Both the position numbers and the translations under genes were made by a program. A stretch of 64,000 nucleotides of DNA, from positions 1 to 64,000 of the forward strand of contig CAMAZP010000008.1 of NCBI GenBank assembly GCA_945863605.1. Reading direction: 5' to 3'. The stretch comes from Chitinophaga pinensis. GTDB taxonomy: Bacteria; Bacteroidota; Bacteroidia; Flavobacteriales_D; Crocinitomicaceae. Shown here in pieces: positions 47,975 through 54,667 of this stretch (the first letter of the stretch is position 1; each line of letters opens with the position of its first letter). The notes below the pieces were generated by a model, which ran no database searches, had not been told where the DNA came from, and saw only the letters and a program-made list of their open reading frames with translations.

Positions 47975-48006
47975 AAAATGGCTACATCAAATGATGTAGC
48001 CATTTT
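47975..48006 (-). terminator. Rho-independent terminator after the T9SS hydrolase gene
   Basis: AAAATGGCTACATCA and its perfect complement form a 13-15-base stem with a very short loop; the minus strand continues into T. Confidence 0.85.
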
Positions 48007-48024: not shown

Positions 48025-49620
48025 TTATTCTATAATTAATCTTTTAGTTATTCTATTTCCACCAACATTCAATTCTACTAGGTAAACCCCTGAACTGAAA
48101 TTTGATGTATTTATGTTTTCTGTAATTGAACTTGTTACAAAACCAAAGTTTTTAGTAATCAAAGTTTTACCAGAAAGATCAACTAATTTTAAAATAACTG
48201 AAGATTCAGTGTTCAGATTAAAACTAATTATAGCGTCAGAGCTAGTTGGATTTGGATAAATTTGAATAGAAGAAATTGCATTATCAATTTCATTGATAGT
48301 TGAGATACCATCAAGGTTCGTTCCCCTAACGATTCTTCTGCAAAAATAACCTAAAGTTGAATCAATGTAAGCCATTGATTTTGACATACTCATGTTAGGA
48401 TTTTGTTGAAGATTTGAGACATGTGCTTGAGTACCTTGAGCTGCAGGTAAACCTAAAGATAAAGCTATATTAACCGTTGTTGTTGAATCCCAAAAATCCC
48501 ATGGAGAACCTTCAAAAGGATTACCTGTTAAAAATGGAAATACATTATCAACTGGTGCGCCAATTACAGTTCCTCCGATATCTGACAAACCTGCAACGTT
48601 TTGCGATGCTGCATTTGCTGCAAGCGTGTATGGATCATTACTAGCATTTACAACATCAAAAACTGTATTATTCCCTAATAAATTTGCTTTTTTCATTACA
48701 TCATAACTACCGCTAATATCTGTTGTAACTATACCTATAGATGCGATTGCAACATCACCAGTTGTGTAAGTTGCAACAGGATCAGTTGGACAATGAACAG
48801 CAATCATAGGAACATCACCAGCTTCTAGCCAGCTCAAATCTCCCATTCCACCACCCATACTACAAACCATGTGAATATCATTTGAATATCCTAAGTTTGT
48901 CTCTATATTAAATTGACCTCCAATACCGTCCCAATCACCAATGATTGTTGTGTCTACAAGAGGTAAAGCATTTGCGTCAAGAAATTTAGGTAATTGAATC
49001 TCAGCTAATTTATCAACTGTTGCATATCCCAATGCAATCCAACCACCTGAACCTTGTCCACACAAAATAATTTTAGATGTATCAATTCCCCATTGATTTC
49101 CATTCTCATAATCCTTTCTGAAGTAACGAACAGCACTTTTTGTATCTTGAATTGCTCTATAAACAGCTTTCATTAAGCTTGCTGCTCTGTCTGCTTGAGT
49201 AGGTGCTGCAGGATTCCAACCCAAACGGTATTCTAAATTTGCAACTGTATATCCTCTTTTTGCATAACTTTGACAGATTTGAGAAGTTGCAAAATCAAAT
49301 CTTGAACCAGTTGGATTACCATTATAAATAATTGGTAAAAAAGTACCTGTGTGCAACATAATGATTAATGGTCTTTCAATCAATGTATCATTAACTGGTT
49401 GATAAAAATCAAAAACCAATGCAGGAGCTTGTGGTATTGTACCTGTTTGTACGTATGGTAACCCTGCAGATTCAGCAATTACAGAGTTATTTACACTGTA
49501 TACAATACCAGTATCTACAGTAATACTAGAAAATACTTCATTGATAAACCTTTGATTTTGTCCAAAAACAGAGGAGTAAGAAAGAAGAGCAAGAATAAAA
49601 GGTAAAATTGTTTTTTTCAT
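48025..49620 (-). CDS. Alpha/beta-hydrolase-like protein with T9SS sorting domain
   Basis: A 531-residue exported protein (signal MKKTILPFILALLSYSSVFG). The alpha/beta-hydrolase fold of the carboxylesterase type is visible: RPLIIMLHTGTF (oxyanion loop), GYTVANLEYRLGWNP, and ILCGQGSGGWIALGYA at the nucleophile elbow. In that elbow the usual GxSxG reads G188-Q-G190-S-G192, so the nucleophile position is Gly with a Ser one residue later. CSMGGGMGDLSWL and AHVSNLQQNP lie where the acid and His would be sought. The last 75 residues (IQIYPNPTSSDAIISFNL to KRLIIE) are a T9SS type A sorting domain. It follows the TonB receptor gene by 50 bases and may work with it. Confidence 0.8.
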   Translation of the reverse strand: MKKTILPFILALLSYSSVFGQNQRFINEVFSSITVDTGIVYSVNNSVIAESAGLPYVQTGTIPQAPALVFDFYQPVNDTLIERPLIIMLHTGTFLPIIYNGNPTGSRFDFATSQICQSYAKRGYTVANLEYRLGWNPAAPTQADRAASLMKAVYRAIQDTKSAVRYFRKDYENGNQWGIDTSKIILCGQGSGGWIALGYATVDKLAEIQLPKFLDANALPLVDTTIIGDWDGIGGQFNIETNLGYSNDIHMVCSMGGGMGDLSWLEAGDVPMIAVHCPTDPVATYTTGDVAIASIGIVTTDISGSYDVMKKANLLGNNTVFDVVNASNDPYTLAANAASQNVAGLSDIGGTVIGAPVDNVFPFLTGNPFEGSPWDFWDSTTTVNIALSLGLPAAQGTQAHVSNLQQNPNMSMSKSMAYIDSTLGYFCRRIVRGTNLDGISTINEIDNAISSIQIYPNPTSSDAIISFNLNTESSVILKLVDLSGKTLITKNFGFVTSSITENINTSNFSSGVYLVELNVGGNRITKRLIIE

Positions 49621-49670
49621 ATTTTTTTTTTAAATGTTACTAAAATTAAGCATAATTTATTAAACAGCTA

Positions 49671-52457
49671 TTAAACTTTACTATTTGTATCAAAAGAAAT
49701 TGAAATGTAAAACATTCTTCCAACAAAAGGTCCCCCATACACTTGTAGAACTTTGTTATTTAATATATTTGATGCCCCTAGTTTTATCGTAAGATTTGCT
49801 TTTTCAATCAATTTATTTACTTGCGCATCAACCAATCCATACGAGGGAATAATGCCTGTAAATTGGGGTGATCCTTCAGATAAAAAACCTTGAATCCACT
49901 TGTAATTTATATTAAATCCAATACCATTAACTTTTTTAATTGCTAAGTCTTTACCCTGAAATCCTAAATTGAATTTATTTTCAGGTGTATTATATGCAGG
50001 AATAATAGGGTCATTCGATACTTTTCGCAGTTCGTTCCATGAGTAGTTTCCGTTTAAAGCTAAATGATCATTTAAATAAAAATTTAATCCAATAGTTATT
50101 CCTTGTGTTGTTATTTTTTCTTTTGAATTTGTGGCTATACGGTAAACATCTTCAATAATAATTGTACTATTCGGGGTGACAAAAATATCTGCACCATTTA
50201 CATAACCTATAAAATTTGTGTAGCGATTAAAATAGTAACCTAGATCCAGGTACAACTTGTTAAAAAACAAACCTTTATAACCAAATTCAAATGACAAAAC
50301 CTTTTCTGGAGCAATTGGATCCAAATTAAAGTACTCTAAAGTATCAATATTAGGAATCAAAGTTGAGTAACAATTTTGAATTGACTCTATTGTAACAAGT
50401 GAGTCATAGCCACTAATATTACCTAGTAATTTGGCTCTTCCAACATTGTAATACATATATTGATTTAATAATGTTGGATTTCTAATTGCTGATGTAACGG
50501 TTCCTTTAATCGTTTGTTGCTTATTCGGTTGCCAAATTAAAGATGCTGCAGGTGAAGGTAAAAAGTCAAAGTTTTGATTTTTATCAACGCGTATACTTGC
50601 TCTTAAAATCCATTTATCAGATGCAAACTTCTTATCAACACCTGCATAAATTCCAAATTCTTTATTTATGATTCGAACACCATTTGTATCGCTAAAAAGA
50701 GATCCTCCTGATTTAGGCGTATAAATTCTACCATTACCGCCAATAGTAAACTTTGCAAATGAGGTATTAAATATTTTCTCTGCATGAATGTGATATAATG
50801 CTGATTTATCTACTATTCTTGAACCACCCTCAAGAAATGAAGTTTTTCTTGTTATATCTGCTAGCAGTGAATCGAATCGTTGAGTGCCGGGTTGAAAATA
50901 ATCTTGCATTTCCAAATTACTGAATTCACTATCAGCAAATTCTCTTGCTTCTTGGTGCCAAACAAACATTGAATCTGGATTAGCATCAATAACCGCATTG
51001 ATAGCATCATAATCTGCTGGTGAACCAACAATTGGTGTCCATTGAACACTTGGGTCTAATGCTCTTACTCGACTTGTTATTTGACTTGACCAATATTGAC
51101 GGTATCTATTTTGCCAATTAGCATCAGTTGCTGCAGCATCTTGCAATAAAAAAGCTGTTAAGACCGCATCGTATGAATTTCCTGCGTCCTCATTTGTAGC
51201 ATAGGCACGAATGAAAAAATCATCTTTTTTCTGAATTTCGATTCGATTTTGAAAAAACAAAATATCTTTTAAGCTAAATCTATTATCACCTTGGTAAACT
51301 GTTGTTCCTGTTCCAAAATTGGAGGCAAAAATCATTTCTACTTTCGGAGTTAGCATAAAATGTAAAGCCCCTGAAGCTTTTAAATTCTCAGTTTTGTAGT
51401 CAACAATATCTTTTTCCCAATATCCCGTTCTGTGCCAACGTCTTAAACCAGGAGTTTGCCAAACAGCACTTAAATCTAATGCATTATTAATATTTGGTGA
51501 AAGATTTTCATCACCGTATCTATTAACGGCATCGTATCCTCCAGGATTATATATATCAGTATCTAATCCTTCTACAGAATTGCTATTACTTGCCTCCCAG
51601 TCATTTGCTCGCATATATGCTACATTAACTTTATAAGCAAATACATCTCTTTCTTTTTTAAATTTATAGGCTTTTGCATAACGAACAGCGTACTCAGTTA
51701 AAAAACGTTCACCAGCTTTAACACTTGCACTAAATCCCTGAAATTTGAATGGATTCTTTGTGTTCATACTAATTACTCCATTAAAAGCATTAGGACCATA
51801 AAAAGCAGAACTTGCACCAGAAATAATATCTACTTGCATAAGATCTAGTTCAGAGGCTCCAAGAAAATTACCCAAAGAAAAACTAAGTCCAGGAGAAGCA
51901 TTATCAACGCCATCAATCAATTGTAATGTTCGAACAGGTGACGTAGAATTGAAACCGCGTGTATTGATTACTTTAAAACCAATACTAGCGGAAGTTAAAT
52001 CAACACCTTTCATATGACTTAATCCTTCATAAAAATCTAAAGCTGGAGTTGCTTTTATTTCAGCTAATGACATTGTTTCAACCGATAGCGCTGAAACTTT
52101 CTCTTTTTCATTTGCAAAACTTCTAACGCTAACTTCTCCAAGAACTTTAACATTATCAGGATTTAATCGAATAATTATACTATCATTTACATCTTTAACA
52201 ACTACATCTGCTTGAATGTAGCCAAACATTGTGCACGTTAAGTTAATTGGGAAATTTGAGCTAATATTTGTAATTTTAAAACGGCCACTGTTATCTGAAA
52301 TGGCTCCATTGTTTACACCGACCACTTTAATTTTGACACTTTCTAAAGGTTTATTAGAAAAATCATCGTAAACTATTCCTGTAATAGAATTTTGAGCTGA
52401 TAAATTAATTGCACTGAGTACAAAAAATAAAAGATAAACTATTTTATGTTTGATCAC
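49671..52457 (-). CDS. TonB-dependent outer-membrane receptor
   Basis: A 928-residue outer-membrane protein. After the signal (HKIVYLLFFVLSAINLSAQN) comes a carboxypeptidase-regulatory-like domain (SITGIVYDDFSNKPLESVKI), then the plug (NTRGFNSTSPVRTLQLIDGV, IISGASSAFYGPNAFNGVIS), then a long beta barrel ending in aromatic RMFYISISFD. The start is GTG; no ATG fits the signal peptide. The protein lacks a SusD partner next door, so it is not a SusC-type pair. It presumably imports a bound ligand, driven by TonB. The T9SS hydrolase-like gene directly downstream suggests its ligand may be a product that protein releases or binds. Confidence 0.92.
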   Translation of the reverse strand: MIKHKIVYLLFFVLSAINLSAQNSITGIVYDDFSNKPLESVKIKVVGVNNGAISDNSGRFKITNISSNFPINLTCTMFGYIQADVVVKDVNDSIIIRLNPDNVKVLGEVSVRSFANEKEKVSALSVETMSLAEIKATPALDFYEGLSHMKGVDLTSASIGFKVINTRGFNSTSPVRTLQLIDGVDNASPGLSFSLGNFLGASELDLMQVDIISGASSAFYGPNAFNGVISMNTKNPFKFQGFSASVKAGERFLTEYAVRYAKAYKFKKERDVFAYKVNVAYMRANDWEASNSNSVEGLDTDIYNPGGYDAVNRYGDENLSPNINNALDLSAVWQTPGLRRWHRTGYWEKDIVDYKTENLKASGALHFMLTPKVEMIFASNFGTGTTVYQGDNRFSLKDILFFQNRIEIQKKDDFFIRAYATNEDAGNSYDAVLTAFLLQDAAATDANWQNRYRQYWSSQITSRVRALDPSVQWTPIVGSPADYDAINAVIDANPDSMFVWHQEAREFADSEFSNLEMQDYFQPGTQRFDSLLADITRKTSFLEGGSRIVDKSALYHIHAEKIFNTSFAKFTIGGNGRIYTPKSGGSLFSDTNGVRIINKEFGIYAGVDKKFASDKWILRASIRVDKNQNFDFLPSPAASLIWQPNKQQTIKGTVTSAIRNPTLLNQYMYYNVGRAKLLGNISGYDSLVTIESIQNCYSTLIPNIDTLEYFNLDPIAPEKVLSFEFGYKGLFFNKLYLDLGYYFNRYTNFIGYVNGADIFVTPNSTIIIEDVYRIATNSKEKITTQGITIGLNFYLNDHLALNGNYSWNELRKVSNDPIIPAYNTPENKFNLGFQGKDLAIKKVNGIGFNINYKWIQGFLSEGSPQFTGIIPSYGLVDAQVNKLIEKANLTIKLGASNILNNKVLQVYGGPFVGRMFYISISFDTNSKV

Positions 52458-52592: not shown

Positions 52593-52619
52593 AAAAAGGC
52601 TGTCAAAATAGACAGCCTC
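52593..52619 (-). terminator. Rho-independent terminator after the Omp28-like gene
   Basis: On the minus strand AGGCTGTC and GACAGCCT pair over eight bases around a six-base loop, followed by a T run. Confidence 0.85.
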
Positions 52620-52651
52620 TTAAAAGTAATAGGTTATAATGTTTTCTTAAA

Positions 52652-54667
52652 TTATTCAACCACTAATCTTTTGGTAACTTTTTTACCATCGATTGTAAAT
52701 TGAACCAAATATACTCCTGCAGTGAAAGCAGATGTGTTAAGATTAACAGACCAAGTTCCATTTAAAGAACCATAGTTTTTTTCAGCCAAAACTTTTCCGG
52801 AAATATCAATCAATTTCATTTCAACTTGAACTTGATTTTCTAAATTTAGGCTAATTGTAGTATTTGAATTTGCTGGATTTGGATAAATCTTTACCATTGC
52901 GTCTAATTGATTTTCAAGGGCTTCAAATAAACCTGCATTACTTCCATCCACAAAACCATTTGTTACAGCCTCAGCAATTGTAGCTTTTCCAGCATTATCG
53001 ATTCTTCCTGCTGGATCAATTAATAAACCAACTATGTGCATTTCATTTGCTTCCCAAGTTGTTGGTAATTCAAATGTGAAATTTAAAGTATGTGATTCTC
53101 CAGTGCTTACCGCTGCAGGAAAGCTGTTTGTATAACCTGCAAAACTTGGAGCAATTGCTCGTGCAACGTGATCATAAACCATTTGTGAAGCTGGAACAGG
53201 ATTTGGTTTAGTTTCAAACCCACCCATAATTCCATTTGCACCTCCAGCATAAGAATTTGATTGATTATAACCTGAACCAGTCCCAGTTACACCATCTTCA
53301 GTTAACACACATGCCAATTTATAACTGTTTGTTGCATTTGCTGTAAAATTAGCTGTAACAGAAACATTCAATGTTCTTGAAGTTTCATCCCAAAGTGCTC
53401 CATTAACAATTGTTGCTTTTGGAGCTACTTGTAAACGCTCAAAAAACTGAGGTCCCATTCCAGAAGGATCAACATCGGTTCCTCTATCTACTAGTGAACT
53501 TGGATAACCAGCAATTAAACTTCCAAACGCAGCATCGTAATCTGTAATTGTCATTGGATCATTGTTATGAACTGCAATTCCTATCCAATAATCATCATAC
53601 TTTTGAGTAAATAAGTCCATGTAAACAGTTCCACGAGGACACCATTGACACCAAGTTCCAGTACCTTCTTCACTGACAACCATTTTACCAGTAGCTGGAA
53701 CGACTGGATTAATTGCTTTTGTAAGTGTATCGTCAGAACTTATATCATCTATTCCCATATTTACATTTGAAACGATAGCTTTGTAAAGCCCATTACCTGG
53801 TACAAGTGTAATATTCGGTAACGTTGCTTCATAAGTTGCTAAACTTGCAATATTCTGTCCTGAAACATTAGCTGTATAGGTTGCACCATTATATTCAAAA
53901 TCAACATCAAAAGAATTGATTGCTGTAGTTCCACCATTTAAAACACGAACTTTTGGAGCGAAAGTTTGACCAGAAATTTCACCTGTAGTAATGATTTGTG
54001 AAGTCAATGCATTTAATGCTGGTAAAGTATAATTCTCATGATCAAAACTTACATCATCGACATAGAATTGGCTATTTTGAATCGGATAATAGTCCACTGA
54101 AGCTACTACATTTACACCATTTGTCCAAGTAGAAATTAGTACATCATTCACATAAGCTTTCCAAACTTTAAGGGTAAGATTTGCGACGATTTTAAGATTG
54201 AACCAAGTTGCAGGAGTGTAAGTTCCTACTGCTAAATCTGCTGTAGTTCCATCGTCAATACGAATTTCTCCTCCATCCATATTTACATTTAAAGTATAAG
54301 TTGTACCAGCAGTTAAAGCTCCTTGAATATTGAAATATCCATTTTTACCAGTATTGATGTAGAAATTATTCTCAAGAGTGAATATTCCACTGTTGTAAAC
54401 TTGACCAAATTTCAAGAGCACATCTTGTGGTCCGCCATTAGCTGCTGTTGAGGCAAAATAAATTGATTGCGCACCACTTAAAGCTTGAACGTCGGTTGTT
54501 TTTACATCTTCAGTATTTCCTTCAGTTCCAGACCAAGTTGACCAATTTGTTGATTGAGGACCAATGTAAGAACCGAGTGCATAGCCTTCGAAATCATCTG
54601 AAAATAATTGTCCAAAAGTGAAGTTGGAAGCAATTAGTATAGAAGCAAATAAAGTAAATTTTCTCAT
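52652..54667 (-). CDS. Omp28-related protein with T9SS sorting domain
   Basis: A 671-residue exported protein (signal MRKFTLFASILIASNFTFGQ). The N-terminal 200 residues are a concanavalin/jelly-roll-like region (DDFEGYALGSYIGPQSTNWS). The centre (about 320-600) is Omp28-like with a thioredoxin-type CxxC in TGTWCQWCPRGTVYMDLFT, then IAVHNNDPMTITDYD and GYPSSLVDRG. Members of this group are thought to act on thiols or bind ligands outside the cell; the role is not established. The last 80 residues (MVKIYPNPANSNTTISLNL to KRLVVE) are a T9SS type A sorting domain. It has its own terminator. Confidence 0.85.
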   Translation of the reverse strand: MRKFTLFASILIASNFTFGQLFSDDFEGYALGSYIGPQSTNWSTWSGTEGNTEDVKTTDVQALSGAQSIYFASTAANGGPQDVLLKFGQVYNSGIFTLENNFYINTGKNGYFNIQGALTAGTTYTLNVNMDGGEIRIDDGTTADLAVGTYTPATWFNLKIVANLTLKVWKAYVNDVLISTWTNGVNVVASVDYYPIQNSQFYVDDVSFDHENYTLPALNALTSQIITTGEISGQTFAPKVRVLNGGTTAINSFDVDFEYNGATYTANVSGQNIASLATYEATLPNITLVPGNGLYKAIVSNVNMGIDDISSDDTLTKAINPVVPATGKMVVSEEGTGTWCQWCPRGTVYMDLFTQKYDDYWIGIAVHNNDPMTITDYDAAFGSLIAGYPSSLVDRGTDVDPSGMGPQFFERLQVAPKATIVNGALWDETSRTLNVSVTANFTANATNSYKLACVLTEDGVTGTGSGYNQSNSYAGGANGIMGGFETKPNPVPASQMVYDHVARAIAPSFAGYTNSFPAAVSTGESHTLNFTFELPTTWEANEMHIVGLLIDPAGRIDNAGKATIAEAVTNGFVDGSNAGLFEALENQLDAMVKIYPNPANSNTTISLNLENQVQVEMKLIDISGKVLAEKNYGSLNGTWSVNLNTSAFTAGVYLVQFTIDGKKVTKRLVVE

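Follow-up and report, generated by a model that had tools for sequence, protein, structure and literature searches.

A Two-Gene Locus on the Minus Strand

The window analyzed here is a 64-kb stretch of Chitinophaga pinensis contig CAMAZP010000008.1, in which two adjacent ORFs, both open, lie on the minus strand. The first, with a GTG start, encodes a TonB-dependent receptor of 928 aa (49671..52457) and the second an esterase-like protein of 531 aa (48025..49620), referred to below as the pseudoesterase; the receptor stop and the pseudoesterase start are separated by 50 bases. A hairpin with a T-rich tail lies 3' of the pseudoesterase gene (47975..48006, minus strand; -19.7 kcal/mol, z -7.0) and a second one, with a T-run, between the receptor gene and an Omp28 gene (52594..52621, minus strand; -17.1 kcal/mol, z -6.9). 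Both are terminator-like; the latter is the only one of the two listed by a consensus scan, in which the region held 3 terminator-like sites against a shuffle mean of 3.2, i.e., no excess. The T9SS-tailed Omp28 gene upstream (52652-54667) was considered as a further member of the unit and rejected, as the stable hairpin between it and the receptor gene suggests a separate unit and none of the six closest loci that we opened contained a separate ORF matching Omp28. Some of the pseudoesterases at these six loci match the T9SS tail of the Omp28 protein. At gathering score, neither the window nor any of 7 homologous loci yielded a riboswitch, the cobalamin type included.

An Esterase-Fold Protein with T9SS Export Signals

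Pfam assigned to the pseudoesterase a BD-FAE domain (E 2.8e-12) and a T9SS tail (E 5.6e-13). The former, an alpha/beta-hydrolase domain (PF20434), was found in all 53 rows of our homologue alignment, which comprises the window and 51 of the 80 named loci (one locus giving two rows), fragments and near duplicates being omitted. Comparison of the AlphaFold2 model (pLDDT 87) with the PDB gave Z scores of 23.8 to Thermogutta Est2 and 23.2 to 6xyc. The protein has a hydrophobic start without Cys, modeled as helix 2-21, and we assigned a putative signal peptide to residues 1-20 (49561..49620, minus strand), with a proposed cut before Gln21, a residue kept in 52 of 53 rows. Export by the T9SS had been proposed in the first-pass annotation, and the sorting tail was borne out: the type A sorting domain (residues 454-530; 48031..48261, minus strand) scored over cut-off with both PF18962 and TIGR04183, PF18962 was present in 53 of 53 rows, and the window's genome encodes the T9SS sortase PorU (NF033707, 1227.7 bits against a cut-off of 420). 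We infer that the pseudoesterase is located at the cell surface.

Two Catalytic Residues Have Been Replaced across the Family

Residue equivalences among the pseudoesterase, its paralogues and solved structures were taken from alignments. The elbow reads G188-Q-G190-S191-G192-G193 (49042..49059, minus strand), and the initial observation that Gly stands at the nucleophile position proved correct. Gly190 (codon 49051-49053) matches the Ser of GSSAG in the paralogues in a gap-free alignment, pairs, in a sequence profile match to the phosphorylated esterase 7bfr, with its modified residue X, and lies in the AlphaFold2 model between strand 179-189 and helix 191-201, the arrangement of a nucleophile elbow. 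It is invariant in all 53 aligned rows, the window included, which argues that the Gly elbow is not due to chance.

The catalytic His is replaced as well. Its position in the intact sisters is occupied by Val360 (48541..48543, minus strand), an assignment made from row counts with which hhalign agrees; residue 360 is His in all five intact sister rows, where the site reads an invariant HVPY, and in none of the 114 other rows (65 Leu, 37 Val, 5 Ala, 4 Tyr, 2 Met and 1 gap). The oxyanion-loop region reads H90-T-G-T-F-L-P96 (49333..49353, minus strand), the intact paralogues having HGGxF. Asp280 at the catalytic-acid position (48781..48783, minus strand) is retained in 53 of 53 rows, and Trp374, on the loop beyond the last strand of the fold (48499..48501, minus strand), is likewise invariant. 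As read from the alignments, the pseudoesterase lacks the nucleophile Ser and the catalytic His and retains the acid Asp280, which supports the dead enzyme that the first-pass annotation had offered as one of two options.

In a tree built with the elbow columns removed, a single branch (SH-aLRT 100) had 56 Ser-less rows on one side (55 Gly, 1 Tyr) and 17 rows with Ser, the intact GSSAG esterases, on the other. The pseudoesterase gene is under purifying selection, with dN/dS values of 0.04-0.10 in four pairs (the first pair having a dS of 1.1, near saturation), and Gly190 is encoded by all four Gly codons across 81 homologues. With the Gly elbow family-wide, dN/dS low and all four codons in use, a local mutation or a decaying gene can be rejected; GxSxG homologues pointing to a local mutation, named at the outset as a possible refutation, were not seen. 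No viral copy was confirmed among 22 pattern matches.

The Partner Receptor

The receptor contains a plug (PF07715) and a barrel (PF00593), both over the Pfam cut-off, plus a CarboxypepD_reg-like domain; among 36 receptor homologues, the plug was found in 36 and the barrel in 27. Its predicted model has a pLDDT of 74, and Foldseek returned general receptor matches alone (Cir, BtuB, PirA, FrpB, OprC and FepA). The SusC/RagA signature TIGR04057 reached 18 bits, below the cut-off of 46.2. The description of the receptor as lacking a SusD held: Pfam found no SusD domain in the five locus proteins scanned, and the SusD models PF07980, PF14322 and PF12771 had no match in the window's 3.09 Mb assembly, with a Bacteroides control positive each time. 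In the core of the plug (residues 150-200 of the plug at 123-228; 51774..52091, minus strand) the commonest residue averages 93% of a column across the 36 receptors, a level of conservation that speaks for a single, chemically uniform substrate throughout the class. Loop L4 (residues 425-548; 50814..51185, minus strand), which has five predicted helices and measures 123-141 aa in each of the 36 receptors aligned, is a candidate docking site on what would be the extracellular side.

The Two Genes Occur Together

The pairing of the pseudoesterase and receptor genes is tight, and the receptor is the sole strongly recurring neighbour. It lies directly upstream of the pseudoesterase in 57 of 74 named loci and was found in 95 of 115 loci, a set in which, as in the family-wide elbow surveys, some loci are the same genome twice; the next commonest neighbour family was found in 18 of the 115, and no conserved third partner was found among them. 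The other 17 of the 74 named loci have no matching receptor directly upstream. One of these (L160) has the receptor downstream instead, and another (L179) has a different outer-membrane barrel protein with a CarboxypepD_reg domain upstream. The ten neighbours scanned were an E1-type dehydrogenase, an M50 peptidase, DNA polymerase III beta, a hybrid histidine kinase, the L179 outer-membrane barrel protein, two small barrel-like proteins, a DUF6134 protein, one T9SS-tailed protein and one intact esterase sister.

At the level of the order, 153 of 399 genomes carry both genes, 7 the hydrolase only, 12 the receptor only and 227 neither, and at the level of the class the corresponding figures for 395 sampled genomes are 168, 4, 20 and 203, the genomes in these counts being related to one another and hence not independent. 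Lack of co-occurrence elsewhere, which the first-pass annotation had named as counter-evidence, was not seen, as the pair recurs in other genomes. We opened 10 of the genomes counted as "receptor only" (32 in all): five turned out to carry an adjoining partner after all, in four the contig ends inside or at most 0.7 kb from the receptor gene, and one has no partner there. Among the matches listed, the genes are non-adjacent in 24 of the 124 class genomes with both (on different contigs in 22, a few kb apart in 2), so adjacency is not obligatory; this count excludes second copies, of which seven are listed, and none of them shares a contig with the receptor of a non-adjacent genome. Within the window's own genus, 20 listed genomes lack the pseudoesterase and the same 20 lack the receptor, showing that the unit is dispensable.

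An intact sister esterase lies next to the pseudoesterase-receptor pair in some lineages, a hint that the substrate is an ester or a related compound.

A Proposed Capture-and-Import Unit

The dismantling of the active site points to capture rather than cleavage, i.e., the dead esterase probably catches something for the receptor rather than cutting it. We favor, with somewhat better than even confidence, the reading that the two genes constitute a bicistronic unit for capture and import, in which the esterase-fold protein, having lost its Ser and His, persists as a binding protein. The signal peptide would take the pseudoesterase across the inner membrane and the T9SS would take it across the outer membrane, where it would be anchored at the surface. 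The old active-site cleft, with Asp280 retained and the invariant Trp374 nearby, may bind the ligand; alternatively, the pseudoesterase may cap the receptor. The ligand would then be passed on, within a putative complex, to the TonB-dependent receptor for uptake. A pseudoesterase that captures ligand in the place of SusD, as first suggested, fits the lack of a SusD match in the genome. More tentatively, and at slightly less than even confidence, the pair may represent a further class-wide capture-and-import system of Bacteroidota beside SusCD, in which a T9SS-anchored dead esterase would serve a single receptor family as its own surface binder; this system, found in over 40% of the class genomes sampled, would take up one conserved compound.

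The pseudoesterase could instead act in surface binding or scaffolding, such as adhesion or receptor assembly, without handing over a ligand, the pairing then reflecting co-expression or assembly alone. Neuroligins match the sequence profile (best E 6.8e-05) and the genes stand apart in the 24 of 124 genomes among the matches listed, both in keeping with such a role, but its co-occurrence with one receptor family is near-obligate and the plug core of that family is extremely conserved, and we consider the scaffold reading unlikely.

Conservation of Gly190 is by itself not proof of a binding role, and another chemistry may also be possible, in which the Gly elbow retains an oxyanion-like pocket and the conserved H90, H276, D261, D280, W374 and R165 take part in a non-hydrolytic reaction or bind a cofactor. 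In its favor, many polar residues are invariant or near-invariant; against it, the solved relatives by sequence comprise, besides sorting-domain matches, esterases/lipases and the non-catalytic neuroligins, with no Gly-elbow catalyst among them, which leaves such a chemistry improbable.

The nucleophile elbow of this fold requires a small residue at nucleophile minus 2. Hydrolysis by Ser or Thr191 as a nucleophile one residue on, the other option of the first-pass annotation, is very improbable. One or the other residue occupies the site in each of the 53 rows and Asp280 is retained, but Ser191 is not invariant (34 Ser, 19 Thr) and so the Ser has not simply shifted by one. In addition, residue 189, which that register would put at nucleophile minus 2, is in most rows bulky (36 Gln, 5 Leu, 3 Tyr, 3 Glu, 3 Val and 1 each of Ile, Thr and Asn), Leu or Val stands in place of the catalytic His, the model places 191 as the first helix residue, and the intact sisters carry Ala there.

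Relation to Known Systems

Bacteroidota receptors of this type are best known with lipoprotein partners, e.g., SusD and BtuG. The partner described here seems to be a secreted former enzyme, no longer catalytic, that the T9SS delivers, and with the pair present in 168 of 395 sampled class genomes, a common, so far unexplained uptake route becomes testable. SusC-SusD and RagAB similarly combine a TonB-dependent receptor carrying a CarboxypepD_reg-like domain with an exported partner encoded adjacent to it; in contrast, the window's locus and genome have no SusD match, the receptor falls below the SusC signature cut-off, and the partner is a T9SS cargo without the lipoprotein Cys. BtuG has a fold different from that of esterases. 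In the BtuB-BtuG system, a B12 receptor is associated with a non-SusD surface lipoprotein (excerpts of PMC10404256 and PMC6143338), i.e., a TonB-dependent receptor with a dedicated surface binder, as proposed, from co-occurrence, for the pair described here. Unlike the BtuG lipoprotein, the partner here is a T9SS-tailed protein with the fold of an esterase and a dead active site.

We found no description of the pseudoesterase-receptor pair in titles and abstract starts of the open-licence PMC literature, an absence that is weak evidence, or in excerpts of PMC12611786 and PMC10434189. At the Prevotella intermedia HmuY locus, the gene that follows, which encodes a T9SS cargo, is co-induced with the haem uptake gene (excerpt of PMC10434189). 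This T9SS type A protein, encoded with an uptake gene, resembles the pseudoesterase in its sorting type and genetic setting; it is not known to have an esterase fold or to be paired with this receptor family.

The gibberellin receptor GID1 retains the Ser. Its active-site His is replaced by Val or Ile (excerpt of PMC4728528), much as the His of the pseudoesterase is replaced by Val or Leu, and it exemplifies an esterase fold turned ligand receptor, although as a plant hormone receptor. Neuroligins are surface proteins without the catalytic serine that are active in adhesion (excerpt of PMC12931606); they share with the pseudoesterase a cell-surface alpha/beta-hydrolase fold lacking this Ser but are eukaryotic, membrane-spanning and of another fold branch, and they serve as a parallel case only. 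Closest in structure are the BD-FAE/carbohydrate esterases (PF20434; 6xyc, 6tkx) and Thermogutta Est2 (7bfr, 5ao9), which share the fold (Z 23-24), the acid Asp and the strand-elbow-helix arrangement, whereas the pseudoesterase has Gly for Ser and Val or Leu for His, and adds a long insert before the last helix as well as the T9SS tail. A BD-FAE match by itself would mislabel these proteins as esterases.

A Glycine Replaces the Catalytic Nucleophile Throughout the Family

The minus strand of the window carries an open ORF for a TonB-dependent receptor (49671-52457, 928 aa) with CarboxypepD_reg-like, plug and barrel domains. Head to tail with it, 50 bases on, lies a second open ORF (48025-49620, 531 aa), which combines a BD-FAE esterase-fold domain (E 2.8e-12) with a T9SS type A tail (E 5.6e-13) and which we call the pseudoesterase. 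The first-pass annotation had placed a Gly at the nucleophile position of its elbow, G188-Q-G190-S191-G192-G193, and three separate alignments bear this out. MAFFT aligned Gly190 with the nucleophile of the paralogues, whose elbow is GSSAG[GA] in 24/24 rows; an hhalign comparison between the family and eight intact sisters (same-fold esterases with Ser at this position) gave the same register (E 1.4e-78); and in a PDB profile match the modified residue X of 7bfr, a paraoxon-phosphorylated esterase, aligned to Gly190. The predicted model (mean pLDDT 87, 53 sequences) has a strand at residues 179-189 followed by a helix at 191-201, as around a nucleophile elbow, and among solved structures it comes closest to Thermogutta Est2 (Z 23.8) and the gut carbohydrate esterase 6xyc (Z 23.2).

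We found homologues in 160 of 399 genomes of the order (E <= 1e-45), in 172 of 395 genomes of the class (E <= 1e-42) and in named public genomes, where the best 80 of at least 485 relatives were taken, all titled Bacteroidota and nearly all MAGs. In an alignment of 53 pseudoesterases, window included, G190, D280 (the acid) and W374 are invariant, H90 is kept in 52 rows and H276 in 48. After the addition of 66 rows, position 190 was Gly in 113, Ser in five and Tyr in one. The five Ser rows come from intact sister genes that are distinct from the pseudoesterase and adjoin the pair; the Tyr comes from a second copy (GEYTGG), and Ser at 190 was absent from all examined rows of the Gly group; a second copy in another genome reads GTNSGG. 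The Gly elbow is a family trait. Second copies with Tyr or Asn at the nucleophile position lie beside the pair at L149:11445-12932, L227:12072-13559 and L228:7607-9106, the first two, whose contigs are equally long, probably on one contig.

The remaining catalytic machinery is also altered. The intact sisters have an invariant HVPY, whose His corresponds to residue 360 by both hhalign and MAFFT; this residue is His in 5/5 intact sister rows, and in the other 114 rows it is L (65), V (37), A (5), Y (4), M (2) or a gap (1). Elsewhere in residues 281-440 the commonest His, at residue 400, occurs in 43/114 rows. On alignment grounds, the catalytic His of the family is gone. The oxyanion loop has changed from HGGxF to mostly HTG[TSN]F.

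Two readings of the elbow had been offered at first pass: a catalytic Ser moved by one residue, or a dead enzyme that binds its ligand. The former fares poorly, as residue 191 (S in 34 rows, T in 19 of the 53) could not easily serve as a substitute nucleophile, given the Thr rows and a usually bulky residue 189. The dead binder is favored by the family-wide Gly, the loss of the His and the dN/dS values of four pairs (0.10, 0.075, 0.087 and 0.036), although binding itself is inferred. All four Gly codons were found at position 190 in 81 homologues, and the protein is a pseudoenzyme that has been retained rather than left to decay. When 145 rows were thinned by similarity to 73 and a tree was built without the elbow columns, a single branch parted all 56 non-Ser rows from the 17 Ser rows (SH-aLRT 100), therefore one loss suffices if Ser is ancestral.

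The Pseudoesterase Is Paired with the Receptor

The two genes, proposed at first pass to act together, do occur together elsewhere. Both were found in 168 of the 395 class genomes, against 4 with the pseudoesterase only, 20 with the receptor only and 203 with neither; the corresponding order counts, window's genome included, were 153, 7, 12 and 227 of 399, and kinship among genomes would inflate any p-value for this co-occurrence. Among the 74 named loci in which 500 or more bases are available upstream of the pseudoesterase, 57 have the receptor immediately before it (gaps of 3-416 bases), and the receptor is the only strongly recurrent neighbor (95/115 loci; the next commonest, 18). Where both places were listed (124 class genomes), the receptor precedes the pseudoesterase in 97, the order is reversed in 3 and the genes are non-adjacent in 24; in two of these 24 they share a contig at a distance of a few kb. 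Ten of the 32 receptor-only cases were opened: five have the partner next door, where the search threshold had excluded it, four have a contig end inside the receptor gene or at most 0.7 kb after it, and one (G660) has a PLP-dependent enzyme as the next gene. In the window's genus, the 20 genomes for which no pseudoesterase was listed have no listed receptor either. The genes around the pair differ from lineage to lineage, which speaks for a real unit.

Several loci depart from this arrangement. The pseudoesterase comes first at loci L160 and L229 and in genomes G430, G523 and G556. At L179:6830-9646, the usual upstream receptor gives way to a different outer-membrane barrel protein (PF14905), which has a CarboxypepD_reg-like domain. 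Genome G188 has only fragments of both genes at the loci opened (L074, L075 and L076), some with stops, and seems to be a lineage losing the pair.

In the window, a stable hairpin follows the pseudoesterase gene (-19.7 kcal/mol, z -7.0) and another precedes the receptor gene (-17.1 kcal/mol, z -6.9). With hairpins on both sides, the pair looks like a single transcription unit, apart from the Omp28/T9SS gene further upstream. A consensus terminator scan, whose overall total was not above its shuffles, listed only the hairpin ahead of the receptor gene. Behind that hairpin, directly upstream of the receptor gene, the window encodes a T9SS-tailed protein with an Omp28 domain (52652-54667); none of the six closest loci opened showed it next to the pair.

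A Putative Surface Binder for a TonB-Dependent Receptor

Most likely, T9SS sets the dead esterase on the cell surface, where it would bind a ligand and hand it to the receptor for import. In this scheme the sequence losses, their conservation and the gene pairing are directly observed, and the surface location, the complex with the receptor, the ligand and the import are inferred. The window's assembly (3.09 Mb, the window lying on contig 8) encodes a complete PorU sortase; three SusD models gave no match in it, in keeping with the description of the receptor as lacking SusD. The conserved Gln21 of the pseudoesterase agrees with the Q-rule that applies to signal peptidase I in Bacteroidetes (PMC5837995). 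In 36 receptors, the commonest residue averages 93% of each column in the plug core (150-200), conservation that may reflect a single shared substrate. Loop L4 (425-548) is 123-141 aa long in 36/36 receptors with five predicted helices, so it may be a docking site; the receptor was modelled at medium quality (pLDDT 74, plug partly below 50).

The same hand-over has been described for BtuG, which passes its ligand to BtuB (PMC10404256), although the present putative binder is unrelated to BtuG. A T9SS type A protein has been reported as co-induced with the haem-uptake gene hmuY (PMC10434189). Binders evolved from esterase folds are already known: neuroligins are without the catalytic serine and have a role in adhesion (PMC12931606), and gibberellin receptors have Val or Ile in place of the active-site His (PMC4728528). 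In the family described here, both residues are missing. The pair seems to be a new variation on the theme of a receptor working with a surface partner, and a literature search of open-licence papers found no published description of it.

Intact Sisters and Doubled Domains

An intact BD-FAE sister with a GSSAGA elbow lies elsewhere in the window's genome (contig C2:74566-75282). In 7/80 named loci such a sister adjoins the pair, downstream at L147, L151, L154 and L172 and just upstream of the receptor at L152, L155 and L156; among further loci, which may overlap with the named ones, it is downstream in 5/29. Three-gene clusters of receptor, dead and live sister were seen at these seven loci and at L189, L194, L202, L209 and L214. 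At five loci (L098, L099, L100, L105 and L107) the pseudoesterase domain is doubled in tandem within one ORF of 1,174-1,383 aa, with the Gly elbow in both domains; L099 is cut by a contig end. Copies also occur in public MAGs titled Chryseobacterium gleum or Chitinophaga pinensis (L112, L116, L117, L153, L159 and L162), and since the first three are close to the window's form, these organism titles look unreliable.
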